Positions 2,692-26,800 of a stretch of DNA of 36,241 bases are shown piece after piece. The notes beneath the pieces are model-generated. The model saw nothing but the letters and a program-made list of their open reading frames with translations. It was not told where the DNA came from and searched no databases. The stretch is from a virus. Each line of letters begins with the position of its first letter. Positions within the stretch are counted from its first letter, which is position 1. The DNA lies in the IMG/VR virus record IMGVR_UViG_3300009159_004928, positions 1-36,241 of that record; one strand, written 5' to 3'. The position numbers and the translations under genes were made by a program.

Positions 2692-3855
2692 ATGGCATTA
2701 ACAAAATTAGAATCATACATGGTCGGACCAACTGCATCGACTCCAAAAATTACTTCATTAGCATATTCTGGTGTTACCATTGGGGCTAATTCATTTGGTG
2801 GAGAAACATTAACTATTACTGGATCTGGATTCAGTTCCGGTGCAGTTGTTTATATTGACACTACGAGTTGTGCAACTACATTTGTTAATTCAACTACTTT
2901 AACATTTACTGGACCTGCAAAAAGTGCAGGTTCATATCATCTTTATGTTTATAATACTGATGGAAGTTTTGCTTTAAAGCCCGGTGGAATTACCTTTATC
3001 ACTTATGTTACACCAACAGTAGAATACTTAGTAGTAGCAGGTGGCGGCGGTGGCGGTACGCAGAGTGGGGGTGGCGGTGGCGCTGGTGGATATAGAACTG
3101 CTACAGGATTTGCTGTTGCATCTGGTACACCTATCACAGTAACAGTGGGTGGTGGAGGCGCAGGGACTGCTGCCGGTGGCAACGGTGACAGACCTGCCGG
3201 AACTAGTGGTAGTCCTTCAGTTTTTTCTACAATCACTTCACTAGGAGGTGGTGGCGGTGGTTGTTATAGGGGTGGCGTCGGCCTAGCTGGTAATTCTGGT
3301 GGTTCTGGGGGTGGCGGCGGCGTAGGTGGGAGTGCTGGTGCTGCTGGAGGTAGTGGAACAGCAGGCCAAGGTTTTGATGGTGGCATAGGCGGTCCAGATA
3401 ATAGTAGCAATCAAGATGTAGGTGGCGGTGGTGGCGGAGCAGGAGCTGTAGGAGTTTCATACACTGATGCAAACACCGCAATAAGAGGTAATGGCGGCGC
3501 CGGATCAACATCATCTATATCAGGTACAAGTGTTACTTACGCCGGCGGCGGTGGCGGTGGCACATATGGTGGTCCGAGAGCTGGAGAAGGCGGCACAGGC
3601 GGCGGTGGCGCTGGTGGAAATAGTACTGGTAGTGTTACCGCATCAAATGGAAATCCTAATACCGGTGGAGGTGGCGGTGGTGGTTGGGAGTTTAATAATG
3701 CCGGTGGCACTGGTGGTTCAGGTGTTGTTATAATTCGTTACGCAGACACATATAACGCAGCCACAGCAACAACTAACTTAGAGGCCGGATATCCAGTTGT
3801 TAGTGGTGGATATAGAGTATACAAGTGGATTACATCCGGTAGTATAACATTTTAA
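2692..3855 (+). CDS. TIG/IPT-domain plus glycine-rich adhesin-like protein
   Basis: 387 aa; ATG preceded by AAGGA in ATAAGGATAAGA, 9 bases after the previous stop. Residues about 15-105 form an IPT/TIG-like Ig fold (GGETLTITGSGFSSGAVVYI, then TFVNSTTLTFTGP). From about 110 (VEYLVVAGGGGGG) to 345 the chain is glycine-rich, with many GGGGG runs, and closes with GGSGVVIIRYADT. The C-terminus (YRVYKWITSGSITF) matches the end of a glycine-rich virion protein type common in marine phage genomes. Gly-rich regions of this kind in phage adhesins can form polyglycine-II sheets that carry variable receptor-binding loops; that role is inferred here. Two other proteins in the window (16429 and 23824) carry related Gly-rich regions. 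A tail-tip adhesin is the likeliest job. Confidence 0.75.
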   Translation: MALTKLESYMVGPTASTPKITSLAYSGVTIGANSFGGETLTITGSGFSSGAVVYIDTTSCATTFVNSTTLTFTGPAKSAGSYHLYVYNTDGSFALKPGGITFITYVTPTVEYLVVAGGGGGGTQSGGGGGAGGYRTATGFAVASGTPITVTVGGGGAGTAAGGNGDRPAGTSGSPSVFSTITSLGGGGGGCYRGGVGLAGNSGGSGGGGGVGGSAGAAGGSGTAGQGFDGGIGGPDNSSNQDVGGGGGGAGAVGVSYTDANTAIRGNGGAGSTSSISGTSVTYAGGGGGGTYGGPRAGEGGTGGGGAGGNSTGSVTASNGNPNTGGGGGGGWEFNNAGGTGGSGVVIIRYADTYNAATATTNLEAGYPVVSGGYRVYKWITSGSITF

Positions 3856-3865
3856 CTAAATATAC
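3856..3865 (+). promoter_or_regulatory. Candidate phage late promoter (CTAAATATAC)
   Basis: The ten bases CTAAATATAC start immediately after the stop of the preceding gene and 25 bases before the next ATG. The identical ten bases recur at 27669 before the PAAR gene, and a close variant lies at 9463. They resemble the T4-type late -10 element (TATAAATA), which is recognised without a -35 box. Assignment rests on position and recurrence only. Confidence 0.45.
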
Positions 3866-3880
3866 ATAGAGATAAAAAAC

Positions 3881-4621
3881 ATGGCATTTCCAAGTAGTCC
3901 AATAAACGGTCAGTTAGCGGTACAAAATGGTATCACGTATACCTACAACAGTACATATAGTTCTTGGACACGAAACCCATCTACACTACCAACATTAAGC
4001 GTAGTGGTTGATACTTTCACTGGCAATGGTAGTACAGTAGCATTTACATTAAGTGTTACCCCAAGCAACGCAGACTTTGTTAGCATTAATATTGACGGTG
4101 TAAGTCAGTTAAAATCAGCTTATACATTATCAACAAACATAGTAACATTTACTGGTACACCCGCAAATGGTTCAGTCATTGAAGTTAAATCATGGAATTC
4201 GGCAGCAGTTGGAGTACTAACTGGATTAACATTTGATAGTTTTACAGGTAACGGCTCAGCGGTAGCATATACATTAAGCACAACACCAACAAATAAAAAC
4301 TTTACAATAGTAACAATTGGTGGCATCACACAAGAAAAAGTTAATTATAATGTAAGTGGAACAACACTAACATTTACAACAGCACCACCAAACACTGCAC
4401 CAATTGAAGTAACTACATTTGGTCCTGCAATCAATACCGCAGTAGCGGCAGGATCAAGTACACAAATTCAAATTAATTCTAGTGGTATATTAGCTGGATC
4501 ACCAAATTTAACATTCAACACAAGTACTAATACACTGAATGCAACAAACATTACACAAAACGGAACACCAATAACAACATTAGGAAAATCCATAGCAATG
4601 TCTATGGTATTTGGAGGATAA
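3881..4621 (+). CDS. Small tail-fibre/structural protein with duplicated beta module
   Basis: 246 aa. The N-terminus (FPSSPINGQLAVQNGITYTY, then SSWTR) is a motif I associate with phage tail proteins. It is followed by two tandem copies of a ~55-residue module starting FTGNGSTVAFTLS and FTGNGSAVAYTLS, each ending in an IEVK/IEVT strand (about residues 45-105 and 115-175). A TQIQINSSGILAGSPNLTFN block near residue 193 matches the TQIQFNDSG block of the first gene, so the two proteins share a module. The short hydrophobic ending AMSMVFGG parallels the LLMGA ending of the first gene. No catalytic motif is seen. It sits inside the fibre cluster, and its role there is inferred as a fibre segment or decoration. 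A CTAAATATAC motif precedes it. Confidence 0.75.
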   Translation: MAFPSSPINGQLAVQNGITYTYNSTYSSWTRNPSTLPTLSVVVDTFTGNGSTVAFTLSVTPSNADFVSINIDGVSQLKSAYTLSTNIVTFTGTPANGSVIEVKSWNSAAVGVLTGLTFDSFTGNGSAVAYTLSTTPTNKNFTIVTIGGITQEKVNYNVSGTTLTFTTAPPNTAPIEVTTFGPAINTAVAAGSSTQIQINSSGILAGSPNLTFNTSTNTLNATNITQNGTPITTLGKSIAMSMVFGG

Positions 4622-4622
4622 C

Positions 4623-4982
4623 ATGGCAGCACCTAACATAGTAAACGTATCAACAATCACTGGTAAACTAGCAGTACAAGCAGTTGGAACTAGTGCAACA
4701 GCAATAGTAACAAACAGTGCCGCAAGTGGACAAGTATACAAAATAAATATTTTGACAATTTCAAACATAGATGCAGGTAATATAGGCTTGATTACTGTAG
4801 ATGTATTCAGATCCAGCACCGCATATAGAATAGCCAGCAATATCAGTGTGCCGATAGGAAGTTCATTCACACCAATCGACAAGTCTACTATATACTACTT
4901 AGAAGAAGGTGATACTCTTAGATTGACTGCAAATGCAGTAAGCAGATTTGAAGCAACATGCAGTTATGAGGTTATTAGCTAA
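4623..4982 (+). CDS. Small beta-rich virion protein, paired with the LamG giant downstream
   Basis: 119 aa, starting MAAPNIVNVSTITGKLAV. I chose ATG 4623 over a TTG at 4611 because GGAGG (4613-4617) sits 5 bases upstream of the ATG. The protein is short, beta-strand-rich and without Cys motifs of note; the segment STIYYLEEGDTLRLTANAVS is a turn-and-strand pattern like that of small phage neck, tail or fibre-attachment proteins. Its stop overlaps the ATG of the 1492-aa LamG protein by one base (TAATG). The same arrangement of a ~110-aa beta protein followed by a TIG/Ig/LamG giant recurs at 9489-12370, suggesting each small protein partners its neighbour, perhaps as an adaptor. Function is not established. 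Confidence 0.75.
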   Translation: MAAPNIVNVSTITGKLAVQAVGTSATAIVTNSAASGQVYKINILTISNIDAGNIGLITVDVFRSSTAYRIASNISVPIGSSFTPIDKSTIYYLEEGDTLRLTANAVSRFEATCSYEVIS

Positions 4983-7900
4983 TGTTAAACAGTGGTTTCA
5001 GGGGTAAACGTGCAACTGATGGTACTGGCGCAATTTCTGCACAAACTCAATCAGTTCAAGCAACTAACCCAGTTCCTAAAATTAATAGTTGGGCAGTAAC
5101 TGACAATAGTTATGTTGCTATTGATGATACTGCGGCTACGTCTGGTGCAACGATTGTAGTATATGGGAATAACTTTGTAACCAATATGACAGTTTACATT
5201 GGTAATATTTCAGTAGCCGCAACGTACTTAGATTCAACTAGAATTACATTTACTGCACCTACACTGAGTAATGGTACATACGTTATTTACGTAATCACTC
5301 CTCAAGGAGCCGCCGCACTATTGACTCCTGGTATTATTTATTCTGGGTTTCCTACTTGGTCAACGTCTACGTACATTAGCACTGTTACTGCAATTAATAT
5401 TCAATTACTAGCTACCGGTGACGCACCATTGACATATGCGTTGCAAGGTGGTAGTACATTACCAACAGGAATTTCATTAACAAGTACCGGGGTATTAACC
5501 GGGACTGCAACTAGTGTTACAACTGATAGTGTGTTTTATTTTACTGTTATAGTAGATGATGCACAATTACAAAGTACTCAGCAATCAATAACATTGACTT
5601 TTCAATTTGGTGAGCCTTACTTTAAATATACAACATTGTTATTGAACGGTGAAACAAGCGTGACTCCATTCATTAGTGACGCAAGTACAAATAGTTTTGG
5701 TTTGACAATTGCAGGTGATACAAAACCTACTAAGTTTACACCATACAGTGAGGGTTATTATAGTAACTATTTTGATGGTACTGGGGATTATTTAAATATA
5801 GCAAGCAATGCGGCATTTGCTTTTGGTACAAGTGACTTCACCATTGAATTTTGGGCTTATCCAACTGTTAATGCAAGACAAGATTGGATAGATTTTGATA
5901 GTGGTGGCGGTTATAGATTATTAGTTTATTATGATGGATCTAATATTATTTACTATTCTAGCGGCGCCAGGATCACTGGATCAGCGATGACATTAAATAC
6001 CTGGCAACACATTGCGGTAGTTCGTAATTCGGGATCAACTAAATTATACATCAATGGAAGTCAAAGTGGTAGCACATACTCAGACAGTATAAACTTTCTT
6101 GCACAACAATTAACAATTGCTAAAGACAATGCCGGTTCAACTTATGTTACAGGATATATGAGCAATGTTCGTATTGTAAAAGGCACCGCAGTATATACCG
6201 CAACGTTTACACCGCCTACATCACCATTGACTGCAATAGCAAACACAAGTTTATTGACCTGTCAGAGTAATAGATTTATTGACATATCTGCTAATGCTTT
6301 TGCAATAACAGTCAACGGAGATGTATCAATATCACCTAACATACCATTCATTGCAAGTAGCAGTTACGCTACATACGGTAGTGCATACTTTGATGGTACT
6401 GGGGATTATTTAACTACAACAGGTACAGCCGCTGGCACCGGTAATTTAACATACGAATGTTGGTTTTATTCAACTTCATTGGCGGTACCGCAGGTTATAT
6501 TCACCACACGTACGGGAAATACATCTGATGGTTTTCAATGTATGTTAGATACCGGCGGTGAATTTCGTGTTGGTTATACCAATATTAATTTTATTAGTAG
6601 TGCTGTAAGTCTTGGTAAATTAAATAGATGGTATCATGTTGCTGTCACAAGATCATCAGGAACAGTTACATTGTGGATTGATGGCATCTCAATTGGCACC
6701 TCAGGAAGAGCAGACAACCTAACATCTACTGCGGTTGGTATTGGCGCAGGCAGAGATTCCGCCGGAGCAAACCCAGTTACCGGATATATTTCTAATTTAA
6801 GATTTATAATAGGCACCGCAGTTTATACAACAGCATTCACCCCGCCAACCTCACCACTAACAGCAATAGCAAATACAAGTTTATTAACATTACAATATAA
6901 TGGTGGTGCAACTAATCAAGCTATTATAGATAATGGACCGTTTAACAACATTATTACAAGAGTAGGTAATACAAGTCAAGGATCATTTAGTCCGTATAGT
7001 GTAACAGGTTGGAGTTTAAATTTTAATCGTAGTAGAATAGATTCTACTCTCACCGGTAAATCACCGGGCACTGGTTCATTTACATACGAATTGTTTTTTA
7101 ATGTAACAATCAAAGAGGCGGTCATTAATAATGTTGCCACATTGTTCAGTACACGGGGAGGAGGTACCGGTGCTGATGGATTTGACGTTCAAATTACAAC
7201 CGCCGGCTCAGTAGAAATCGGTACATCAGGGTCTATTTTGTTTACTTCTAGTGCCGGATTAGTGACCAATGGTGTATGGTATCATTTAGCAATAGTCAGA
7301 AACGGTACAACAAACTGGACAGTATATTTAAATGGAAGTTCTATCGGTACGATAATTAACTCTACCAATTTCACATCAACTGACTTCTATATGGGAGTTT
7401 TTGGAGGAAATGGTAATGATTGGTTTAAAGGTTACATAAGCAATTTTAGATATACCCGTACAGCGGTATACACCGCAACCTTTACTACACCTACGTCACC
7501 GTTAACGGTAATTGTAAACACAGAATATTTGGTATGTCAATCTAATCGATTAGTAGATAATTCACCCAACAATTTCACGGTTACACCGGTGGCTGTAAAC
7601 GGATCATCTAGCATTCAAGCCTTTAGTCCATTCGGTAGTGTATCTGAAGCAACGCCTATTAGTTATAGTAACTATTTTGATGGTACTGGTGATTATTTAG
7701 ACGTTCCGGCAGGCAATTCAGCGTTATCATTAGGTACAAGTGACTTCACTGTTGAATTTTGGTTCTATGCCGGATCGACCGCAACTAAAGCATTAATTGA
7801 TTGCAGAAATCCTGATACTGGAAATGCTGGGTTTGATATTTCATATTTAACACCAAATAAAATAAGATTTAGTACCAGTGGAATCGCATATATAGATAGC

Positions 7901-9460
7901 ACAACTACCGTCACTGCTAACACATGGTATCATATCGCACTGACCCGAACGTCTAATGTGTTTAGCATGTACATCAACGGCACAGTCGATTCCACTACAT
8001 ATACCGGTAGTTCTGTGCAAAACTTTACAAACACTAATTATAGAATTGGTTCAGGAGCAAACGGTGCGTTTACAGGATACATATCAAATGTTCGTATTAT
8101 AAAAGGTACAGCAGTCGTTCCTCCGGCAAGCGGACCAACAACACCGTTGACCGCAGTGGCAAATACAAGTTTGTTAACATGTCAATCAACTACTATTGTT
8201 GATAATAGTGTTAACAACTTAACATTAACCGCTAACGGTGATACTAAGCCAAAGCAATTCAACCCATTCGGATATACTGCACAAATTAATACAATTTACA
8301 CACCAAGTATACATGGTGGCAGTGCATACTTTGATGGTACCGGGGATTACTTGAGTACACCTACTAATACTGCACTTAATTTTAGCACTGGTGATTTTAC
8401 AGTAGAAGCATGGGTTTATCCAAATTCACTTGCCGCAGATTGGTTTATCATCAGTTCAACAGGATCCGGTGGGCTTTTCTTTGGACTGGCAGCAGGACAA
8501 GGTTATGGTTGGGGTAGAACCGCAACAGCATGGGATTATCGTGTTGCTGGATATGATAAAATTAATCAATGGCAACATATCGCAGTTACACGAAGTGGTA
8601 CAAGTATGCGATTATTTTTTAATGGAACTCAAATTGGAACAACACAAACCATATCCACTGCTTATAATCTAGGAACAACCAGCACAACAATTGGCAGTCA
8701 AGGTGCTAACTATTATCTCAATGGTTATATCTCTAACCTGCGTGTGGTCAAAGGTACTGCAATCTATACCAGCAACTTCTTACCACCCGCACAATCACTA
8801 ACAAATTATTCTACTACAGTTCCATCAACATTGTTATTGAACTTTGACAACGGTGGTATAGTTGACCAACATTCTACAAATGTATTAGAAACTGTGGGTA
8901 ATGCACAGTTAAGTACTGCGGTTAAGAAATACGGTAATGCTAGTATGTATTTTGATGGTACTGGTGACCTTTTAACAATACCAAATAATCCATCACATGC
9001 TGCATTGGGAACATCAGATTTTACTTTAGAGTTATGGTTTAATCAAACTGTTTTAAATGCCAGAGATAATTATCTTATTTCCCATCGTGTAGGTGGTTAT
9101 GCACCATTTTTATTCTGGATCAACAGTGGAGGTTCATTAAGATATTACTCAAGTTCGGATTTAGGTAGTTGGGGTTTGGCAAATGATATTGCTTTGGGTG
9201 CAATATCTCTTAATACATGGTATCATCTCGCATACACTCGGAGTGGATCTACATTTAAAGTGTTTTTAAATGGTGCTCAAGTATATACACACACATCTTC
9301 TGCAACATTTACCACAGCAACTACTGCACTTAACATAGGTGGTCAAGTTGGAGGTGGTGATAACTTTACTGGATACATTGATGATATAAGATTTACAAAA
9401 GGTGTTGCTAGATACACTGCTAACTTCACTGCACCGACAGCGGCATTTATAGGACGATAA
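4982..9460 (+). CDS. Giant TIG/Ig-like/LamG adhesin (six LamG modules)
   Basis: 1492 aa. Domains in order: TIG/IPT-like Ig fold at about 35-120 (SGATIVVYGNNFVTNMTVYI); a putative-Ig (He_PIG-like) domain at about 125-208 (LPTGISLTSTGVLTGTATS); then six LamG/concanavalin-A-like jellyrolls whose hallmark FDGTGDY strand lies near residues 263, 470, 677 (degenerate, WSLNFNRSRID), 899, 1117 and 1324. Each LamG unit runs about 207-222 residues with the pattern FDGTGDY, DFTIEFW, W-H-AVVR, LYINGSQ, GYMSNVRIVKGTAVYT. No catalytic residues are seen. Such folds bind glycans, so I infer host-surface recognition by a long fibre. It shares its whole architecture, and a distinctive last module (STAVKKYGNAS, then GYIDDIRFTKG), with the 850-aa protein at 9818, which has only three LamG units. 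Confidence 0.8.
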   Translation: MLNSGFRGKRATDGTGAISAQTQSVQATNPVPKINSWAVTDNSYVAIDDTAATSGATIVVYGNNFVTNMTVYIGNISVAATYLDSTRITFTAPTLSNGTYVIYVITPQGAAALLTPGIIYSGFPTWSTSTYISTVTAINIQLLATGDAPLTYALQGGSTLPTGISLTSTGVLTGTATSVTTDSVFYFTVIVDDAQLQSTQQSITLTFQFGEPYFKYTTLLLNGETSVTPFISDASTNSFGLTIAGDTKPTKFTPYSEGYYSNYFDGTGDYLNIASNAAFAFGTSDFTIEFWAYPTVNARQDWIDFDSGGGYRLLVYYDGSNIIYYSSGARITGSAMTLNTWQHIAVVRNSGSTKLYINGSQSGSTYSDSINFLAQQLTIAKDNAGSTYVTGYMSNVRIVKGTAVYTATFTPPTSPLTAIANTSLLTCQSNRFIDISANAFAITVNGDVSISPNIPFIASSSYATYGSAYFDGTGDYLTTTGTAAGTGNLTYECWFYSTSLAVPQVIFTTRTGNTSDGFQCMLDTGGEFRVGYTNINFISSAVSLGKLNRWYHVAVTRSSGTVTLWIDGISIGTSGRADNLTSTAVGIGAGRDSAGANPVTGYISNLRFIIGTAVYTTAFTPPTSPLTAIANTSLLTLQYNGGATNQAIIDNGPFNNIITRVGNTSQGSFSPYSVTGWSLNFNRSRIDSTLTGKSPGTGSFTYELFFNVTIKEAVINNVATLFSTRGGGTGADGFDVQITTAGSVEIGTSGSILFTSSAGLVTNGVWYHLAIVRNGTTNWTVYLNGSSIGTIINSTNFTSTDFYMGVFGGNGNDWFKGYISNFRYTRTAVYTATFTTPTSPLTVIVNTEYLVCQSNRLVDNSPNNFTVTPVAVNGSSSIQAFSPFGSVSEATPISYSNYFDGTGDYLDVPAGNSALSLGTSDFTVEFWFYAGSTATKALIDCRNPDTGNAGFDISYLTPNKIRFSTSGIAYIDSTTTVTANTWYHIALTRTSNVFSMYINGTVDSTTYTGSSVQNFTNTNYRIGSGANGAFTGYISNVRIIKGTAVVPPASGPTTPLTAVANTSLLTCQSTTIVDNSVNNLTLTANGDTKPKQFNPFGYTAQINTIYTPSIHGGSAYFDGTGDYLSTPTNTALNFSTGDFTVEAWVYPNSLAADWFIISSTGSGGLFFGLAAGQGYGWGRTATAWDYRVAGYDKINQWQHIAVTRSGTSMRLFFNGTQIGTTQTISTAYNLGTTSTTIGSQGANYYLNGYISNLRVVKGTAIYTSNFLPPAQSLTNYSTTVPSTLLLNFDNGGIVDQHSTNVLETVGNAQLSTAVKKYGNASMYFDGTGDLLTIPNNPSHAALGTSDFTLELWFNQTVLNARDNYLISHRVGGYAPFLFWINSGGSLRYYSSSDLGSWGLANDIALGAISLNTWYHLAYTRSGSTFKVFLNGAQVYTHTSSATFTTATTALNIGGQVGGGDNFTGYIDDIRFTKGVARYTANFTAPTAAFIGR

Positions 9461-9462
9461 GA

Positions 9463-9472
9463 ATAAATATAG
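9463..9472 (+). promoter_or_regulatory. Candidate phage late promoter (ATAAATATAG)
   Basis: ATAAATATAG lies 2 bases after the stop of the 1492-aa gene and 16 bases before the ATG at 9489, in a 28-base gap. It is close to CTAAATATAC at 3856 and 27669 and to T4-type late promoters. AGGA of the ribosome binding site follows at 9479-9482. Confidence 0.4.
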
Positions 9473-9488
9473 AATAATAGGATAAATC

Positions 9489-9818
9489 ATGGCAACCGTA
9501 TATAAAGTATTAGGACAAATTAATCCAGCAGGTAATACAATGACAACATTGTATACAGTTCCTGCAGGTACACAAACAGTAGTAAGTACAATAACAGTCT
9601 GTAATCAAGCGGCAACAACTGCTACATTTACGATAGCAGTACAACCGTCCGGAGCAAGCATATTAACTAAACACTATATAAATTTTAGCACACCGGTGCC
9701 AGCAAATGATACGATTACATTGACATTAGGTATCACATTAGCAACTACTGATTTAATTGCATGTAGCGCAAATACAGCTTCTGTTAGTTTTAGTGCGTTT
9801 GGAAGCGAGATTAGCTAA
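9489..9818 (+). CDS. Small beta-rich virion protein, partner of the second LamG protein
   Basis: 109 aa, starting MATVYKVLGQINPAGNTMTT. AGGA (9479-9482) precedes the ATG by 6 bases. The chain alternates hydrophobic and Thr/Ser residues throughout and reads as one beta-sandwich (YTVPAGTQTVVSTITVCNQA, then FTIAVQPSGAS). I recognise this type from phage virion clusters but know no assigned role. It is the positional counterpart of the 119-aa protein at 4623: both end in a short acidic or polar tail ending IS, and both stop codons overlap the ATG of a TIG/Ig/LamG giant by one base. This supports a one-to-one partnership, for example as adaptor or trimerisation unit, which is inference. Confidence 0.75.
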   Translation: MATVYKVLGQINPAGNTMTTLYTVPAGTQTVVSTITVCNQAATTATFTIAVQPSGASILTKHYINFSTPVPANDTITLTLGITLATTDLIACSANTASVSFSAFGSEIS

Positions 9819-12370
9819 TGGCAATAAAAACTGCTAGTAATCGTAAAACTACAAGTAGCAGTACGCTTTCAAGTGCATATTCATCCACGGTTGTTATTAG
9901 ACAAGTGGTAATAACCGATAGCAATTATGATGCATTGGATGATACTGCTGTGTCAAGTGCCGGCGGATATATTAAAATATTTGGCATAGGATTCATGTCC
10001 GGCTATTCATTATATTATAATGGTATAGCTATCGCAACTTCTACACTTATTAATTCAAATGAAATTAGAGCAGTAATTCCTAGTATAGCAAATGGAACAT
10101 ATAATTTAACAGTGTTTAATACAAATAATACCGGCGCATTGTATGTATTAACTGCTAGTGGATTCCCTACTTGGACAACTAGTTCTTATTTAGCCACAAC
10201 TGCTACTTTGAGTGTGCAGTTATTAGTATCAGGTGATGCACCGTTAACCTATACATTGCAAAATGGTAGCTCATTGCCAAGTGGTATATCATTAAGTTCA
10301 AGTGGATTATTGTCTGGTACTATTATCGGCTTGACTACTAGTACAGCATATTCTTTTACTATTATCGTGACTGATGCACAATTACAAAACACACAACAAT
10401 CAATTACATTGAATGTTACTGTAAGTGACCCCCAATTCAACCTTACGACATTGTTGTTAAATGGTGAAGGTAGTGGCGCAAGTAACAATGCAACTAATTC
10501 TTCTTTTGTAGACAGTAGTACAAGTGCAATTGCAATTACTACAAGTGGAAGTCTTTATCAAGGTACATATAGTCCATTTAGTGCAAGTAGTTTTAGTAAT
10601 TACTTTGATGGCAGCGGAGATTATTTAACTTTAGCAGCCAATGCAGCCTTTACATTTGGTACAGGTGACTTTACTATTGAATGCTGGATATATTTATTAG
10701 GAACTGCAGGAAACTATACAATATACGATAGTAGGACTGCCGGAAGTTCAGTTTCAGTAAATTGGTATTTTCAAGGCAGTAATAATTTATCATTAATGGT
10801 TAGTGGAACAAATCGAATTGCACAAGGATCAGCTTTTCCGGCTAACGTTTGGAGTCATGTAGCTTTGTCTAGGGTATCTGGTTCTACTAGACTATTTGTC
10901 AATGGAACTCAGGCAGGATCAACATATACAGATGCAAATGATTATAATCAGGGTATACCTACTATAGGTCGTAATGCTATAGCCGGCGGCGGAGATAATT
11001 CTTTTCCCGGTTATATCAGCAATTTTCGTATAATTAAAGGTACTGGACTTTATACTACTACGTTTACACCAAGCACGACACCACTTACAGCAATTACAAA
11101 TACAAGTTTATTAACATGTCAATCAAGTATCTTTAAAGATATTTCTACTAATACTTTTGCAGTTACTAGAAATGGTGACGTTAACGTTACCAAATTCAAC
11201 CCGTTCAGTAGCACAGCTTCATATGATCCAGCAATACACGGCGGTGGTACATTTTTTGCTGTTGCAAACGTTGATATGTTGACCATACCAACTAATGTAG
11301 CCTTTGATTTTGGAACTGGAGATTTTACATTTGAATTTTGGATGTGGTTACCGGCAACTGGTGCAAGCGGTGAAGGAGCCTTTCTTAGTGGAAGTGCGTC
11401 AGGGTCTAGCGATTTTGTTTGGTACCAAAGCACATTGAGGTTTGGTCGAAATGGTATTGCGTGGGATACAACATCAAGTGCATTTAATCCTACACTCCAG
11501 CAATGGTATCATATTGCTTTTGTAAAAACAAGCGGCACTGCAAAAATATTTGTAAATGGAGTATCAGTTGCAAGTGCGGCAAATGGAAATACTTATAGTA
11601 GTCAGGGAGGAACTATTCAGCTTGGTAGATCGCAAGACGGATCCAGAGGTTTTGCTGGAATTATGTCCAATATACGTGTAGTTAAAGGCACCGCAGTGTA
11701 CACAGCTAACTTTATTCCACCAACCTCAATACTAACAGCTATATCAGGTACTACATTTTTATTAAATGGAACAAATGGTGGTATTATTGACCAAACCGGT
11801 AACAATAACATTCGTGTATTCGGGGACGCAAAAATATCTACCGCAGTTAAGAAATATAATTCAGGTAGTATTTTATTTGATGGTAACGGTGATTCTTTAA
11901 CTATAGCAAGTAGTCCATTGCTTGCATTTGGTACAGGTGACTTTACCATTGAAATGTGGGTCTATTTTACCTCTATTACGGGAGGTTGTACATTATATGA
12001 TGCAAGAGACTCGGGTAATAGTTTGGGTATTCTTATTGGTATTGATGGAGGCAGTTTGGGACCATATTTTCATGTTTCTGGTGGAAATAGAATACTTGGT
12101 ACTGCATTATCCAATGCTACATGGTACCACATAGCAATTTCTAGGGCATCTGGTTCTACTAAGCTATTTGTCAATGGTGCTCAGTCGGGATCAACATATA
12201 CAGATGCAAATAATTATATCGCAGGTATACCTACTGTAGGAAATAATTCATCGGGTGGCGGTGGCACTAATTATCTTAATGGTTATATAGATGATTTTAG
12301 AATCACAAAGGGATTTGCAAGATATACTGCTAACTTTAGCTCACCATCATCGGGATTTCTAGGACAATAA
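9818..12370 (+). CDS. TIG/Ig-like/LamG adhesin (three LamG modules)
   Basis: 850 aa; paralogue of the 1492-aa protein. Domains: TIG-like at about 30-120 (GGYIKIFGIGFMSGYSLYY); He_PIG-like Ig at about 122-208 (LPSGISLSSSGLLSGTIIG); LamG jellyrolls around residues 262 (FDGSGDY), 478 (degenerate, FFAVANVDMLTIP) and 686 (FDGNGDS). The last module carries the STAVKKYNSGS entry and the GYIDDFRITKGFARYTANF exit also found in the last module of the larger protein. Modules 1 and 3 share a nearly identical DNA stretch (10871-10947 against 12143-12219), a sign of recent duplication or conversion. No enzymatic residues are seen. I infer a glycan-binding fibre. The ATG overlaps the upstream stop (TAATG). 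Confidence 0.8.
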   Translation: MAIKTASNRKTTSSSTLSSAYSSTVVIRQVVITDSNYDALDDTAVSSAGGYIKIFGIGFMSGYSLYYNGIAIATSTLINSNEIRAVIPSIANGTYNLTVFNTNNTGALYVLTASGFPTWTTSSYLATTATLSVQLLVSGDAPLTYTLQNGSSLPSGISLSSSGLLSGTIIGLTTSTAYSFTIIVTDAQLQNTQQSITLNVTVSDPQFNLTTLLLNGEGSGASNNATNSSFVDSSTSAIAITTSGSLYQGTYSPFSASSFSNYFDGSGDYLTLAANAAFTFGTGDFTIECWIYLLGTAGNYTIYDSRTAGSSVSVNWYFQGSNNLSLMVSGTNRIAQGSAFPANVWSHVALSRVSGSTRLFVNGTQAGSTYTDANDYNQGIPTIGRNAIAGGGDNSFPGYISNFRIIKGTGLYTTTFTPSTTPLTAITNTSLLTCQSSIFKDISTNTFAVTRNGDVNVTKFNPFSSTASYDPAIHGGGTFFAVANVDMLTIPTNVAFDFGTGDFTFEFWMWLPATGASGEGAFLSGSASGSSDFVWYQSTLRFGRNGIAWDTTSSAFNPTLQQWYHIAFVKTSGTAKIFVNGVSVASAANGNTYSSQGGTIQLGRSQDGSRGFAGIMSNIRVVKGTAVYTANFIPPTSILTAISGTTFLLNGTNGGIIDQTGNNNIRVFGDAKISTAVKKYNSGSILFDGNGDSLTIASSPLLAFGTGDFTIEMWVYFTSITGGCTLYDARDSGNSLGILIGIDGGSLGPYFHVSGGNRILGTALSNATWYHIAISRASGSTKLFVNGAQSGSTYTDANNYIAGIPTVGNNSSGGGGTNYLNGYIDDFRITKGFARYTANFSSPSSGFLGQ
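10871..12219 (+). repeat. Near-identical LamG-coding DNA repeat (10871-10947 and 12143-12219)
   Basis: The two ~77-base copies, 1272 bases apart (a multiple of three), both encode a R-SGSTRLFVNGTQAGSTYTDA type segment and differ at only a handful of positions. Copy 1 is in LamG module 1 and copy 2 in module 3 of the same protein. Module 2 between them is diverged at this place. Confidence 0.7.
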
Positions 12371-15858: not shown

Positions 15859-15874
15859 TTTTAGGAGATTACAG

Positions 15875-16426
15875 GTGAGTACTAGAAAAACACCCACTCA
15901 TACAGTATCAACAACTCAACCCCCAATTGGTATGCCGGGGGACGAGTGGTACAATCCTACAACCAACTTTCTATATAAAGTATTTGCAAACTCCGGTACA
16001 ACATTGGTCTGGCAACAAATACCCTCAACTAATGTAACTGGTACTGCGTCAACAGCAACTGCCGGAATTTCTACTGCTTCTGTTACTATAATTGCAGTTA
16101 CTGATGAAACAAGTAATGTAACTGTTAGTACTGCAAGAATGTCTTTTAGAGCTCCTGTAGCAATGGCACTATCTGCTACACCCAGAGCAACACTAACTAC
16201 TGCCTCTTCATCTGGTTTAGTAACTTGTGATATTAAATTAGACGGTACTTCTATATTAAATGCAACAAATAAATTAAGTATAGACGCTACTGAATTATCA
16301 AGTGTTACTGCGGCAACTGCAACTTCATTAGTTACAACGGCTATTCCTGATGATGGGTTAATCACAATTGACATAACGTCAGCCGGCACTGGTGCCAAAG
16401 GATTAAAAATTATTTTCTACTCATAA
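15875..16426 (+). CDS. Fibre-tip-like small structural protein
   Basis: 183 aa from GTG 15875. AGGAG at 15863-15867 lies 7 bases upstream of this GTG, whereas the in-frame ATG at 15806 would overlap the previous gene by 53 bases and lacks a clear ribosome site, so I prefer GTG. Residues about 15-50 carry PPIGMPGDEWYNPTTNFLYK, the same motif as GDQWFNTTTNVLYEY in the first gene. The C-terminal ~90 residues (SFRAPVAMALSATPRATLTT, then GAKGLKIIFYS) belong to a beta module I recognise from many phage tail fibres. Together this looks like a short fibre or fibre tip. It follows the 1012-aa protein by 16 bases and precedes the Gly-rich protein by 2, so the three are probably translated together. Confidence 0.72.
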   Translation: MSTRKTPTHTVSTTQPPIGMPGDEWYNPTTNFLYKVFANSGTTLVWQQIPSTNVTGTASTATAGISTASVTIIAVTDETSNVTVSTARMSFRAPVAMALSATPRATLTTASSSGLVTCDIKLDGTSILNATNKLSIDATELSSVTAATATSLVTTAIPDDGLITIDITSAGTGAKGLKIIFYS

Positions 16427-16428
16427 TT

Positions 16429-18510
16429 ATGGCAGGATTTCGTTTTTCTAACCCAGAAGTTCAGTACGTTGCGTTAGCTGGACAAGAAGAATGGACATCT
16501 AGTTCAGGAAGTTTTACATGGATTGTACCTAGAGGAGTCTTTTCAATACATGCTTGTTGCATTGGTGGTGGTGGCGGAGGTGGCGCCCATGCTACCTCAG
16601 TTTCTGCTGGTGGTGCCGGTGGTTCGTTAGCGTGGGGAAATGAGATACCCGTAACACCCGGAGAATCATTATCTGTTATTGTTGGTGGTGGTGGCAACAG
16701 GGCGGCTGCTAGTGCAACAAGTGGCGGAGATGGGGGAGAGTCATATATTGCAAGAGGCGGAACTAGATTACTAAGCGCACCGGGAGGTCAAGGAGGCGGA
16801 AGTGGCGCCGGTAGCACAAATACTAATACCGCCGCAACGTCAGGTGTAGGCACAATCCTCAGGTCTAGTTCAACAGATTCTTCAGTTTCTTACGGTGGAA
16901 CATCATATGTAACTACAGCGGCTGCAGATGAAAGAACTTCTGGCGGAGGTGGAGGTGCCGGGTATGCCACCGTTGCAGAACATCTAACAGTTACCGGTGG
17001 TATCGGTGCACCAACCGGCGCCTTGTCCGGTGATGGTATAAGGGGTGGCGGAGGTGGCGGCGGTGGCGGCACCAGCAACACCAATGCCGGAGCTGGGGGT
17101 GGAACAGGACCTTGGGGTCAAGGAGCAAACGGTGGCAAAGGTGGTACAGCTGGTTGGCAAGGCAGTGGAGGTTCAGGTGGATTGCCAACATCTATTTTTA
17201 TGAGTCCACAAGCACTATGTTTGGTAACAGCATGGAGTGAAGCCGGTAATTCAACTAATGGTGGATTGTTTGGTGGTGGTGGTGGCGGTGGACTTTCTAA
17301 CAATCCTGGCACAGGTTCTGGATTCGGTGCAAGAGGTTGTGTTAGAATAATGTGGGGTACAGATAGAAGCTACCCTTCAACAAATACAGGTAATTATTAC
17401 GGATCAACTGCTATAGCAAACAGTCAACAAAATTATTTTACACCGGGAACATATACATGGACTGTTCCAGCCGGGGTAACTGAATTCTCAATATGTGCTA
17501 TAGGTGGAGGCGGCGCAGGTATGCAGGGTAGTAGTACGACAGGAAAAGGTTCAGGTGCAGGTGGTGCTTTAGCTTGGGCAAACTTCTCATGTAGACCCGG
17601 AGAATCATTTACTGTAGTAGCAGGTGACGGTGGTCAATCAACTGCATTAAATACAGCAACAGCAGGCGGTTCTAGTACTATTACCAGAACTGTTTCGTTT
17701 AGGGGTTTTACCTCAGACACTAGTTTATTCATAACTGAAATGCTTTCAGGGTTAATAACGACCGGAATAACTATAACTGGTTCAGGTGTATCATCAACTA
17801 CAATAAACACATTTGTGACAGGTGAGTATGGTTACACAGGAACATACACAATAGGAGTTTCACAAACAGTAGGTACATTAGCAAGTCCGATTACATTTAG
17901 TGGAACTTTATTATTATTAACAGCTGGCGGCGGCGATGCTGCCCGAGCAGTAGGTGGTGGCACACCTGCAGGTGGCACAAGAACCATACACTCAAGTGCT
18001 AAAAGTAGTGGTGGTGCGTCAGGTGGTGTGGGTGGAGCAAGCAGTTCATCAACTACTGCACAAGGAGGCAGTGGTGGTGGGGCAGGAGGTTATTCAGGTA
18101 CAGCAGGTGGTGGCGGGAACAATGCTGGTTCAGCCGCAAACGGGTCTTACCCAACCCCTTATGCAGGTAATAGATATTCAATGACAGGTGGGTCAAGTAG
18201 TGGCCGCACAGGCGGCTCTTCTTTGGCAATGGGTGCTGGCGGTGGCGGTACAGGAATATATGGAACAGGCAAAGATGCCAATATGGATACTGGCCAGGTC
18301 TCATCAGCACTCAATTCTTCAGGCATCGGGGGTAGTGGTGGTACAGACGGTGGTATACCAGCAGGCACCGGCCAAGGCGGTTACTTTGGGGGCGGTGGCG
18401 GTGGCACAGGAACTAACCACACAGCTGGCCGGTCAAACGGCGGTATCGGTGGTGTAAGAATAACTTGGGGCGCCCGTCATAAATATCCCGCACCAACAAC
18501 AGACGTTTAA
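16429..18510 (+). CDS. Double glycine-rich adhesin-like protein
   Basis: 693 aa with two Gly-rich modules. Module 1 (about 20-315) opens with SFTWIVPRGVFSIHACCIGG and closes with RGCVRIMWGTDRSYPSTNTG. Module 2 (about 330-690) opens with TPGTYTWTVPAGVTEFSICA and closes with GGVRITWGARHKYPAPTTDV. Between are long GGGGG-rich stretches. Module 2 holds an insert at about 424-500 (FITEMLSGLITTGITITGSG, then GYTGTYTIGVSQTVG) that resembles a short module repeated across phage tail proteins. The same opening and closing strands occur at the C-terminus of the 1271-aa protein (23824). Function is inferred as receptor-binding adhesin with polyglycine-II-like core. No strong ribosome site precedes the ATG, which lies 2 bases after the upstream stop, consistent with translational coupling. 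Confidence 0.75.
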   Translation: MAGFRFSNPEVQYVALAGQEEWTSSSGSFTWIVPRGVFSIHACCIGGGGGGGAHATSVSAGGAGGSLAWGNEIPVTPGESLSVIVGGGGNRAAASATSGGDGGESYIARGGTRLLSAPGGQGGGSGAGSTNTNTAATSGVGTILRSSSTDSSVSYGGTSYVTTAAADERTSGGGGGAGYATVAEHLTVTGGIGAPTGALSGDGIRGGGGGGGGGTSNTNAGAGGGTGPWGQGANGGKGGTAGWQGSGGSGGLPTSIFMSPQALCLVTAWSEAGNSTNGGLFGGGGGGGLSNNPGTGSGFGARGCVRIMWGTDRSYPSTNTGNYYGSTAIANSQQNYFTPGTYTWTVPAGVTEFSICAIGGGGAGMQGSSTTGKGSGAGGALAWANFSCRPGESFTVVAGDGGQSTALNTATAGGSSTITRTVSFRGFTSDTSLFITEMLSGLITTGITITGSGVSSTTINTFVTGEYGYTGTYTIGVSQTVGTLASPITFSGTLLLLTAGGGDAARAVGGGTPAGGTRTIHSSAKSSGGASGGVGGASSSSTTAQGGSGGGAGGYSGTAGGGGNNAGSAANGSYPTPYAGNRYSMTGGSSSGRTGGSSLAMGAGGGGTGIYGTGKDANMDTGQVSSALNSSGIGGSGGTDGGIPAGTGQGGYFGGGGGGTGTNHTAGRSNGGIGGVRITWGARHKYPAPTTDV

Positions 18511-18524
18511 TTAAGAGGAAATCT

Positions 18525-18947
18525 ATGAATTTATATATTGAAATAAATGATGGTAACATAATGAATCATCCGATGCAACAATCTAATTTAGAAATGCTTT
18601 ATCCAGGTATAGATTTTGAAAATTTGCCAGAAAATTACTGTAAATTTATTCGTATAGAACGACCGTTCCCTAAATGGGATGAAGTAATTGAAGGACCAGA
18701 ATATAAAATAATTGATGGAATTTGTTATGATGTATGGACTATTAATAAAATTTCTGATGAAGAACGTCAGAAAAAAATAGATGATTTAGTTGCATCTAAT
18801 CCATATCCTTCATGGACAATTGACTATGAAAATTACAATATAATATCACCGATACCTTATCCAACCGAAGGTTCATGGACGTGGGACGAGACTACGTTGA
18901 GTTGGATTCCTTATGTTGAACCTGTTGAACCTGAAGTAACAGAATAA
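18525..18947 (+). CDS. Small acidic tail-cluster protein, unknown function
   Basis: 140 aa, with AGAGGA upstream of the ATG. The protein is acidic and aromatic-rich and, unlike its neighbours, has few Gly, Ser or Thr, so it is not a beta-repeat virion module. Visible segments include IRIERPFPKWDEVIEGPEYK, a central helix DEERQKKIDDLVASNPYPSW and a C-terminal GSWTWDETTLSWIPYVEP. The W-x-W-D-E-x-x-x-x-W pattern and the size recall small proteins encoded next to phage fibre genes, some of which act in fibre assembly. That match is weak, and no function is assigned. It is the last gene before the ribonucleotide reductase block. Confidence 0.65.
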   Translation: MNLYIEINDGNIMNHPMQQSNLEMLYPGIDFENLPENYCKFIRIERPFPKWDEVIEGPEYKIIDGICYDVWTINKISDEERQKKIDDLVASNPYPSWTIDYENYNIISPIPYPTEGSWTWDETTLSWIPYVEPVEPEVTE

Positions 18948-18967
18948 ACAACTAAATTCACACGCAC

Positions 18968-19429
18968 GTGCGAATCAATGTTAAATATACTGTGATTAAT
19001 GTATTTCAACAAAACTATGATACCAGACTACGTAGTTGGTACGAACTCAGAAAAAAAATAGAATCTGTAGATATTCAAACCAAATGTGTAGAAATTGATC
19101 GTTGGTGGCAAGATGCACCATTAGTCAATCATCATCTACACATTTTGGACAATAATACTTGGCCCGGTCCCTGGGATCTTTTGGTAGAAAATACCTATTG
19201 TACTGTTGCAAGAGCAGTAGGAATGTGTTATACTCTACTACTGACAGGAGAAAACGATATAGAATTGATTGAGGCTACTGATAAAACGGGCGATGATGTG
19301 GTATTAGTCCTGGTTGATAACGCAAAATATGTACTTAATTACTGGCCCAATATGGTACTAAGTAGTTCACTAACCGATTTTACCATTAAGCGTCACGTAG
19401 ACGTATCACACATACAATCAAAACTATAA
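18968..19429 (+). CDS. Conserved-looking hypothetical protein upstream of nrdA
   Basis: 153 aa from GTG 18968, the first possible common start after an in-frame stop at 18953; no clear ribosome site is seen, and a later GTG at 18992 (MINVFQQNYD) is the alternative. The protein is soluble, Trp-rich and mixed alpha/beta: TVINVFQQNYDTRLRSWYEL, VEIDRWWQDAPLVNHHLHIL, then NTWPGPWDLLVENTYCTVAR and GMCYTLLLTGENDIEL. I do not recognise a family. The pattern WPGPWDLL-EN-YC-VARA-GMCYT looks like a conserved active or binding surface rather than a structural protein. It lies 11 bases before nrdA, suggesting co-transcription with nucleotide metabolism, which is inference. Confidence 0.65.
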   Translation: MRINVKYTVINVFQQNYDTRLRSWYELRKKIESVDIQTKCVEIDRWWQDAPLVNHHLHILDNNTWPGPWDLLVENTYCTVARAVGMCYTLLLTGENDIELIEATDKTGDDVVLVLVDNAKYVLNYWPNMVLSSSLTDFTIKRHVDVSHIQSKL

Positions 19430-23823: not shown

Positions 23824-26800
23824 ATGGAAATTGGCGGTGGGGTACAATTTACTGCAGGAATGAACGTAACAGGTATATTTGCTATACCTGAAGCACCTAC
23901 GTCTATTACCGCTAGTAGAAACAGTAGCCTAGCTGTCCCCGGTGATGTAACTAGTGCAACAGTAACATTTGTTGCACCCACACAACCATTCGGAGTTGAT
24001 GCACAAGTATCAACATATACTGCAACAAGTACTCCGGAAAGTATTGTTGGAACTATTAATCAATCAACTGCCGGACCTATCACTGTAAGTGGTTTAACTA
24101 GTACTACTAATTATACATTTGTGGTAACTGCTACTAATAGAGCAGGAACTAGTCCAAATAGTATCACTAGTAATAGCATAGGTAGTTTGCCGCTTAATAC
24201 AGTAACACCAGTATTAACCGGTACTACAACCGTAGGACAAACACTAACTACAACATCGGGCACATGGACTGGTAGTCCTACGCCAACGTTGGCATATCAA
24301 TGGCAACGTGCGGGAGTTAATATTTCGGGAGCAACTAGTAGTACATATACACTAGTGAGTAGTGATGCAGGAAATACAATACGTTGTGCTATAACTGCAA
24401 CCAATAGTACAGGTGCCGTTACACAAAACTCTAATACAACAACTGCAATTAATTGGATGCCTAATAATACAGTTGCACCAGTGGTGTCGGGTACTACACA
24501 AGTTGGCTATACACTAACCACAACAGATGGTACTTGGACTGGTTATCCAACACCAATACTTACATATCAATGGCAACGTGCAGGTGTTAATATTGGTAGC
24601 GGGTACGCAACTAGTAGTACATATACACTAGTGAGTGGTGATGCCGGTACTGTTATAAGATGTGTAGTTACCGGTACAAATGTATTAGGGCCAATTAGTG
24701 CAAACTCTAATGCAACCTCTGCTATTGTATGGCAACCAATTAATACTATTGCACCGGCAATCACAGGTACAACAACAGTTGGACAAACATTGTCAGTATC
24801 AACCGGTACATGGACGGGTTACCCAACACCAACATTTGCGTATCAATGGCAACGTGCCGGAGTTGATATAGCTAGCGCAACAAATAACACATATACATTG
24901 GTAAATACTGATGCTGGAAACACTATACAATGTGTAGTTACTGCTACTAATACAGTAGATACTGTCACGCAAATCTCTAATACAACAACTGCAATTAATT
25001 GGATGCCAGCTAATACCGTGGCACCGGTCGTATCAGGTACTACGCAAGTTGGCTATACACTAACTACAACAAATGGTACATGGACTGGTTATCCAACACC
25101 AACATTCACGTATCAATGGCAACGTGCGGGTGTTAACATTGCAAGTGCAAATAATAGTACATATACTTTAGTAGGTAGTGATGCAAGTTATGTTATAAGA
25201 TGTGTAGTTACCGGTACAAATGTATTAGGGCCAATTAGTGCAAATTCTAACGCAACATCTGCTATTGTATGGCAACCAATTAACACATTGGCACCTGCTG
25301 TAACTGGTACACCCGTACAAGGTTATACACTAACTACAACAAATGGTACATGGACTGGTTATCCAACACCAACGTTTACATACCAATGGCAAAGTGCCGG
25401 GGTTGACATTACAGGTGCAACTAGTAGCACATATATATTAGCTAGTTCAGATTTAGGAAACACTATACGTTGTATAGTCACAGCTACCAACTCAGTCACT
25501 AGTGTAACTGCTAATTCTAATAGTACATCTATTGTAAGTAGTACACCGGTAAATACAGTAGCACCAGCAGTTACTGGTACAGAAGCAGTTGGACAAATAT
25601 TATCTACTACTGACGGAACATGGACCGGTACACCTACACCAACGTTTACATATCAATGGCAACGTGCGAGTGTTAATATCAGCGGGGAAACTAGTGCAAC
25701 ATATACTCTAGTAAATGCGGATGCAGGAAATACAATACGTTGTGTTGTCACCGCATCTAACACAGCTACAAGTTTGATTGGTGTAGTTACTGCTAATTCT
25801 AATAGTACCGGTATAGTTACTGGTCCACCTGTTAACTATGTAACTCCTGCAATTATAGGTACTACAGTGCTTGGCTTAGATTTAACATGTACCACTGGTT
25901 CATGGTATGGTTATCCAACTCTAACGTTTACATATCAATGGCAACGTTCTGGTGTTGATATAGCTAGCGCAACAAATAATACATATACAATATTGGCTCA
26001 GGATGTCAGCACATCAATTACATGTATTGTTACTGCTACAAATGCTATAAGCACAAGCACTGTCACTAGTAATTCAGTTACACCGTCTATAGCTAGTTAT
26101 TCTGTTATATCAGATGGGGGAACCGGCAGTAGAGGCTCTATTAATATGGCCAACAATTCTGCATATGGTATAAGAAATAATTTAACGATTGAATTTTGGA
26201 TTAGATTGAATACTGGATCCAGAAATACTACTGAAGTAATTCTCAGTGCTAGTAGTACTATTAATCCGGCGCAATATTTATCAATCGATAGTTCAAATCG
26301 TATCGGAATAGGTCCAGCACACACCCCGGCAGCAAGTGGGTTAGGTGCTAAAAGTGTTAATTCTCTAACTAGAGATGACTCAACATGGCAACATGTAGCA
26401 GTAGTAGTATCATCGGGTAATTTAAAGTTATTTGTTAACGGCACATTGTGGACTTTAACTGGTACTACTACTGGCTGGAATACAGGATCTGTAACAGTAT
26501 TTATGACGTTATTCAATTATGCTGGTGGAGGTAACTATTACCTTAAGGGTTCATTATCAAATATGAGAATTACTACTTCTCCGTTATATACTGGCGCCTT
26601 TACTCCACCAGCAAATCCGTTAACAATATCTACCGTAGGAACAACTGGCGCTAACGTATATAACGGTGCGTTGGGTTCTTCTGTAGTGTTCTTAGGACTT
26701 AACACAACCAATACTAATAATGATGATTCTAATACCGGAGTACTAACTACAAACAATCCATCGTTTATTCGCTATTCAACATCTAACCCGTTTACTGAAA

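Follow-up and report, generated by a model that had tools for sequence, protein, structure and literature searches.

Two tandem cassettes of a small predicted jelly-roll protein and a LamG-repeat giant in an aquatic-virus fragment: candidate socket-and-plug fibre modules

Modules of the LamG fold are generally known to bind host glycans. In aquatic phages, among them T4-like cyanophages, LamG or concanavalin-A-like repeat proteins (phrog_3545, phrog_24074 and phrog_13163) are encoded in virion-structural gene clusters and, like the locus described here, have repeated LamG modules. The locus differs from them in one of its two large repeat proteins (giant B), the N-terminal region of which had no match among 50,697 phage records. 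The host recognition cluster of pelagimyophages and cyanomyophages is comparable in that several fibres and concanavalin-A domains are encoded within a hypervariable island (PMC7029224), but the accessible part of that paper does not mention a pairing between a small protein and a fibre anchor as described below. No description of such a pairing was found in the literature we searched, which included few subscription papers.

Among the described relatives of the small proteins, S-SCSM1_27 and S-TIM5 gp130 match the same superfamily profile and have the same place before a large fibre, but they belong to another subfamily, precede another fibre N-terminus and are separated from the fibre gene by a gap of 5-15 nt instead of sharing a one-base overlap. 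S-SCSM1_27 is labelled as virion protein, and so are the two proteins whose genes flank it, a long tail fibre and a tail fibre. According to the available part of the S-SCSM1 virion proteome study, 45 proteins were found by mass spectrometry (PMC9602691), and the label probably marks such a detection. S-TIM5 gp130 is labelled as virion structural and is positioned 5 nt 5' of a 1415-aa tail fibre. HTVC010P gp24, which is named virion structural protein, is also matched by the superfamily profile, but there is no long fibre directly behind it. The second small protein of our locus (small B) matches phrog_1276 (E 3.9e-11), a family itself without stated function or partner. The members in S-SCSM1, S-TIM5 and HTVC010P are distant relatives with other fibre N-termini.

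In the exosporium of Bacillus, ExsF (with BclA/F-Anchor) is a jelly-roll trimer which holds a long filament protein by its N-terminal peptide (PMC11952670). Its likeness to the small proteins is a weak fold match and is used as an analogy only; ExsF belongs to a bacterial spore surface and has no sequence relation to them.

Layout of the two cassettes

The window, meaning the whole stretch of 36,241 bases that was analysed, is a linear IMG/VR virus record with a GC content of 38.5%. It contains two tandem cassettes with the following features:

4623-4982, + strand: small protein A (family A), 119 aa, predicted jelly roll (AF2, IMG/VR relatives, superfamily profile)
4980-4984, + strand: TAATG stop/start overlap from small A to giant A (sequence)
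4982-9460, + strand: giant A, 1492 aa; its start shares one base with the stop of small A
4982-5080, + strand: giant A, putative N-terminal anchor of type A, MLNSGFRGKRATDG..., about 33 aa (anchor type tracks the small family)
5081-5758, + strand: TIG/He_PIG-like N-terminal region of giant A (48% identity to giant B; paired with that of L090 giant A in the tree)
5759-8818, + strand: LamG modules 1-5 of giant A, at 5759-6247, 6377-6877, 7010-7522, 7664-8167 and 8318-8818 (boundaries from Pfam Laminin_G_3 and local profile)
8939-9454, + strand: special last LamG module of giant A, STAVKKY...GYIDD (local profile, module tree)
9489-9818, + strand: small protein B (family B), 109 aa, phrog_1276-like, predicted jelly roll (AF2, PHROG, superfamily profile)
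9816-9820, + strand: TAATG stop/start overlap from small B to giant B (sequence)
9818-12370, + strand: giant B, 850 aa; its start shares one base with the stop of small B
9818-9895, + strand: giant B, putative N-terminal anchor of type B, MAIKTASNRKTTSSS..., about 26 aa (anchor type tracks the small family)
9896-10591, + strand: TIG/He_PIG-like N-terminal region of giant B (Pfam TIG, N-terminal tree)
10592-11752, + strand: LamG modules 1-2 of giant B, at 10592-11104 and 11246-11752 (Pfam, local profile)
11864-12364, + strand: special last LamG module of giant B (local profile, module tree)

The shared order given in the preliminary description, with a protein of about 110 aa, a one-base overlap and a giant in each cassette, is confirmed by the coordinates and by TAATG at both junctions. 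Small gene A starts with ATG at 4623 and a further in-frame TTG is present at 4611. The gene just 5' of small A (3881-4621) has two DUF4183 stretches (Pfam E 3.8e-6), a domain which builds F-ENA spore appendage fibres (PMC11952670). Further upstream, positions 1-2682 encode a fibre-like protein running off the window, in which a segment around GNGYYLTGVDQLAAGSADVANSIANGTSNINTP is repeated several times.

Laminin_G_3 (Pfam: PF13385) is annotated in six stretches of giant A (E 5.6e-111, 367.9 bits) and in three of giant B (E 2e-56, 190.8 bits), with a Pfam cut-off of 27.6 bits. A profile built from the window's own LamG modules again found six and three, with the last module closing both giants, so that the difference in LamG number first read from the sequence is supported by both searches. 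TIG (Pfam: PF01833) scored above the Pfam cut-off in giant B alone (23.2 versus 20.9 bits), giant A has a sub-threshold match to TIG_SUH, and He_PIG had no Pfam match in either giant at E values up to 0.1. Of the TIG and He_PIG modules initially assigned to both proteins, TIG in giant B thus holds as a Pfam domain, while TIG in giant A and He_PIG are resemblances at the motif level.

The two giants are 38% identical over 855 aa (BLASTP), rising to 48% in the N-terminal ~196 aa and 42% in the last modules from STAVKKY to GYIDD. This homology begins directly after the anchors, which comprise the first ~33 and ~26 residues, and on this sequence evidence the giants are paralogues. Giant A is matched by 414 phage records. 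Peptide-pattern scans with the N-terminal region of the giants gave almost no matches, one of them returning only the contig L090, because this region is too variable for peptide patterns. Relatives were therefore reached via the small genes.

Small-protein families and the anchors that follow them

There is no BLASTP-level similarity between small A and small B (E 5.4), and phmmer searches with the two matched 100 and 101 ORFs of the fetched loci, with not one in common. That A and B form one close family of recent duplicates was rejected on these two results. At least 575 relatives of small A and 306 of small B were found in IMG/VR. Comparing the two family profiles with hhalign gave a P value of 2.6e-6 and a probability of 88.7, and proteins of S-TIM5 (3671-4066) and of Microcystis phage MaMV-DC (34958-35281) are matched by both profiles. 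AF2, with input alignments of window and IMG/VR rows, predicted an 8-stranded single jelly roll for small A (pLDDT 89, pTM 0.80) as well as for small B (pLDDT 91.8, pTM 0.82), and the predicted strands of the two correspond in the same order. Used as a profile, the joint alignment of both families detected small A with E 6e-31 and small B with E 6e-42. It found members in all 12 records tested, which partly contributed rows to the alignment, the independent finds being those in HTVC010P, S-SCSM1, S-SKS1 and Bellamy and at further places in the rest. On profiles and predicted structures, A and B are distinct families, both widespread, within a single superfamily of remotely related single jelly rolls.

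In the PDB, both proteins have single jelly rolls as neighbours, which assemble into trimers, pentamers or fibres; the matches hold at the fold level alone (all E > 0.001). They include the KHP40 trimeric cement protein (PDB: 7dou, TM about 0.6 for small A and small B) and, as other weak neighbours, Ena appendage subunits and ExsF with a bound N-terminal fibre peptide (PDB: 9h3d), the cleft of which PMC11952670 describes. A PDB sequence search with both small-protein profiles returned no useful match.

A one-base overlap between the small gene and the next ORF is present in 58 of 81 distinct family-A pairs and in 62 of 79 distinct family-B pairs, and the downstream protein tracks the small family in its first 25-40 residues. 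The A-type anchors follow a (R)NGGxIGxxxTPTxSxASGxWSL...NWP-like pattern. Family B anchors are varied (MAVSKLNP, MAIRFAS and MAIKTAS) and follow MA[IV][SRK]..-like, with MGxSVFPA in a shorter B subfamily. When the comparison was restricted to small proteins less than 70% identical and to non-homologous bodies, the nearest anchor belonged to the same A or B family in 131 of 150 distinct pairs (chance 0.5). The excess anchor similarity was reached in none of 1,000 permutations, which ignore relatedness and are to be taken as a guide only. Homology of the bodies, on the other hand, is nearly equal within (10.7%) and between (9.1%) the small families. Anchor profiles from training sets that excluded the tested loci and similar small proteins called part of the fibres and gave 48 A-A pairs, 19 B-B pairs and no cross-pairs.

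Part of this pairing could be linkage alone, as the anchor adjoins the small gene. Another 24 distinct calls of type A, of which about 20 are clear, were made on fibres not adjoining a small gene, all in small-A loci; the loci were chosen by small gene, which biases towards A anchors near small A. The ~20 clear cases are second or third fibres, which speaks for the anchor being retained on other grounds than nearness to the small gene.

In MaMV-DC the superfamily gene overlaps the next gene by one base and the product of the latter starts with KREGGYIG. On metagenome-bin contigs from a scan of bacterial genomes, an A-type anchored fibre lies directly 3' of small A (L172) and the next fibre starts with NGGYVG (L171). 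S-SKS1 has two tandem fibres behind one small A (L004, 9363-12257), both with the NGGxIG anchor and both with the C-terminal end NFDALKGRYGL. A possible third pair was seen in S-SKS1 and S-SCSM1 (L004 3463-8999 and L178 4148-6637), where the fibre behind a small MAAVAxNxFxTI protein starts with SGR....

Probable exchange of fibre bodies and rearrangement of LamG modules

The closest relative is the 70.8-kb contig L090, which has the same A-then-B cassette order. At the DNA level, window and L090 are 87% identical over 1468 bases in the left flank, 82% over 1115 bases from the end of giant A through small B to the start of giant B; a third stretch, which runs from the end of giant B through the genes that follow, is 90% identical over 3585 bases. 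The LamG regions between these conserved stretches match in scattered pieces alone, and the giants of L090 have seven and six LamG modules against six and three in the window. Some pieces of window giant A best match L090 giant B, i.e. the other cassette; positions 6782-7082, for example, are 84% identical over 234 bases to L090 giant B and 76% to L090 giant A. Within the LamG modules (5759-9454 and 10592-12364) the edges and linkers match widely, whereas the centres are highly variable and often without match. The conserved edges and linkers could help homologous exchange.

Other giants with the same N-terminus or body have three to eight LamG modules, and the short protein of S-SKS1 has two. 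Loci carry one to three cassettes (L141: A, B, A; L117: B and A), and in L105 and L123 a second giant lacks a small gene of its own. The change in repeat number proposed in the preliminary description is supported, and the varying cassette number that it suggested looking for is seen among the relatives. With the LamG modules there is a further case in which domain number changes fast between conserved ends; the tandem repeats of the BACON domain in crAssphage are another example of domain-repeat evolution in phages, with a different domain, in the part of the report available (PMC6949934). A stretch of about 3 kb (window 15859-18995 versus L090 14288-15333), including the glycine-rich gene at 16429-18510, has no match in L090; entire fibre-like genes are thus gained and lost as well.

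In the tree of N-terminal domains, the two A giants of window and L090 group together (100/99), as do the two B giants (99/99), and the bodies associated with A and B are intermixed. As the two window giants are split from each other, their divergence is older than that of window and L090. At depth the LamG-module tree has poor resolution, and only the positional class of the last modules was taken from it: 18 of 22 last modules of different phages fall in one group (SH-aLRT 97), with 6 label changes compared to 14.7 in shuffles, none of 500 being as low. The special last module shared by the giants, as claimed earlier, is thus a class that recurs in other phages. Its relations disagree with the N-terminal tree, since the last module of window giant B is closest in identity to that of L090 giant A. 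The N-terminal and C-terminal histories therefore partly differ, which comes near to the unrelated lineages that would speak against duplicated cassettes, yet all parts belong to the same domain families.

The preliminary description had proposed that the entire cassette of small and giant gene was duplicated in tandem, with LamG gain or loss thereafter. Paralogy of the giants' bodies stands, but duplication of the whole cassette as a unit does not. The like order and one-base overlap, the paralogous giants and the remotely homologous small proteins agree with it; however, the bodies are 38-48% identical while the small proteins are mutually undetectable by BLAST, each small family is separately widespread, two anchor types follow the two families, and the split dates to before L090. 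A recent duplication was rejected on the BLASTP result and the N-terminal tree, and we regard the proposal in general as quite improbable. The data fit better with bodies moving between different heads of small protein and anchor. A very old duplication of the whole cassette, followed by body exchange, may have taken place, as the two small families have a common ancestor.

Possible roles of the cassettes

We lean slightly towards reading the cassettes as socket-and-plug fibre modules, composed of a virion jelly-roll socket, a matched anchor and a swappable LamG body. The small protein would be a single-jelly-roll subunit, probably oligomeric and positioned on the tail or baseplate of the virion. 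The matched plug which docks into this socket would be the N-terminal ~25-40 residues of the fibre, whose translation begins at the overlapping start. Docking is suggested by the analogy to ExsF and the N-terminal peptide of F-Anchor (PMC11952670) together with the covariation of anchor and small protein. Behind the plug, the exchangeable body of TIG/He_PIG region, LamG lectin-type string and special last module may contact the host surface. In the window, paralogous bodies would sit behind two different, long-diverged socket/plug pairs, and LamG modules would be gained, lost and moved between cassettes by recombination, with sockets, plugs and ends conserved. It is plausible that the two giants are alternative or complementary fibres.

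Linkage could also account for the pairing if the small protein were an independent decoration protein or lectin and recombination breakpoints lay just inside the fibre gene, the anchor being the fibre part nearest the small gene. The cement-protein fold neighbours agree with such a role, as does a 'putative lectin' annotation in DSL-LC04 and S-CBWM1. We consider it unlikely, given that the same anchor type is met again on second and third fibres away from the small gene, on bodies that are unrelated, and in isolates as distant as MaMV-DC and S-SKS1. A shade less probable to us is a fibre folding chaperone or assembly factor which is translated first and stays outside the virion. Known phage pairs of fibre and chaperone are adjoining, translationally coupled genes as well (PMC10579305), but in S-SCSM1 (with a proteome study), S-TIM5 and HTVC010P the superfamily member carries a virion-protein annotation, and the single jelly-roll fold is common to structural and cement proteins. 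Moreover, the variation of the small protein matches the fibre N-terminus, whereas many fibre chaperones act at the C-terminal tip. Neither small A nor small B had a Pfam or PHROG match to fibre chaperones of the Tfa/gp38 type. As for the giants, PHROG names related LamG proteins baseplate wedge subunit or virion structural protein, not fibre, which would suit structural baseplate or collar pieces with LamG as scaffolding in place of receptor binding. These matches cover the LamG repeats alone, though, and rapid LamG change within conserved flanks fits host recognition better, so we hold such a scaffolding role to be very improbable.

Extending the socket-and-plug reading, we suggest tentatively, and with somewhat less than even confidence, that many unrelated aquatic phages (sipho-, podo- and myoviruses) share a fibre exchange standard of jelly-roll socket and plug with at least two or three mutually exclusive codes. 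If so, a phage could acquire any body and run several fibres per socket via recombination behind the plug, and the anchor sequence would tell which socket a fibre fits. Hundreds of anonymous ~110-aa genes of aquatic phages would gain a role. Receptor-binding proteins could then be found in unannotated viruses, and the trading of host-recognition parts with the particle kept would become testable.

Elsewhere in the window, the gene at 23824-27639 is, on the Pfam and PHROG searches, a further modular adhesin-like one: its 1271-aa product has about seven Ig-like repeats and one LamG, with a glycine-rich domain at the C-terminus. Between 30838 and 33244 there are genes which, by eye, we take to be IscU-like, two A-type iron-sulfur carrier-like, sulfotransferase-like and fatty-acid desaturase-like.
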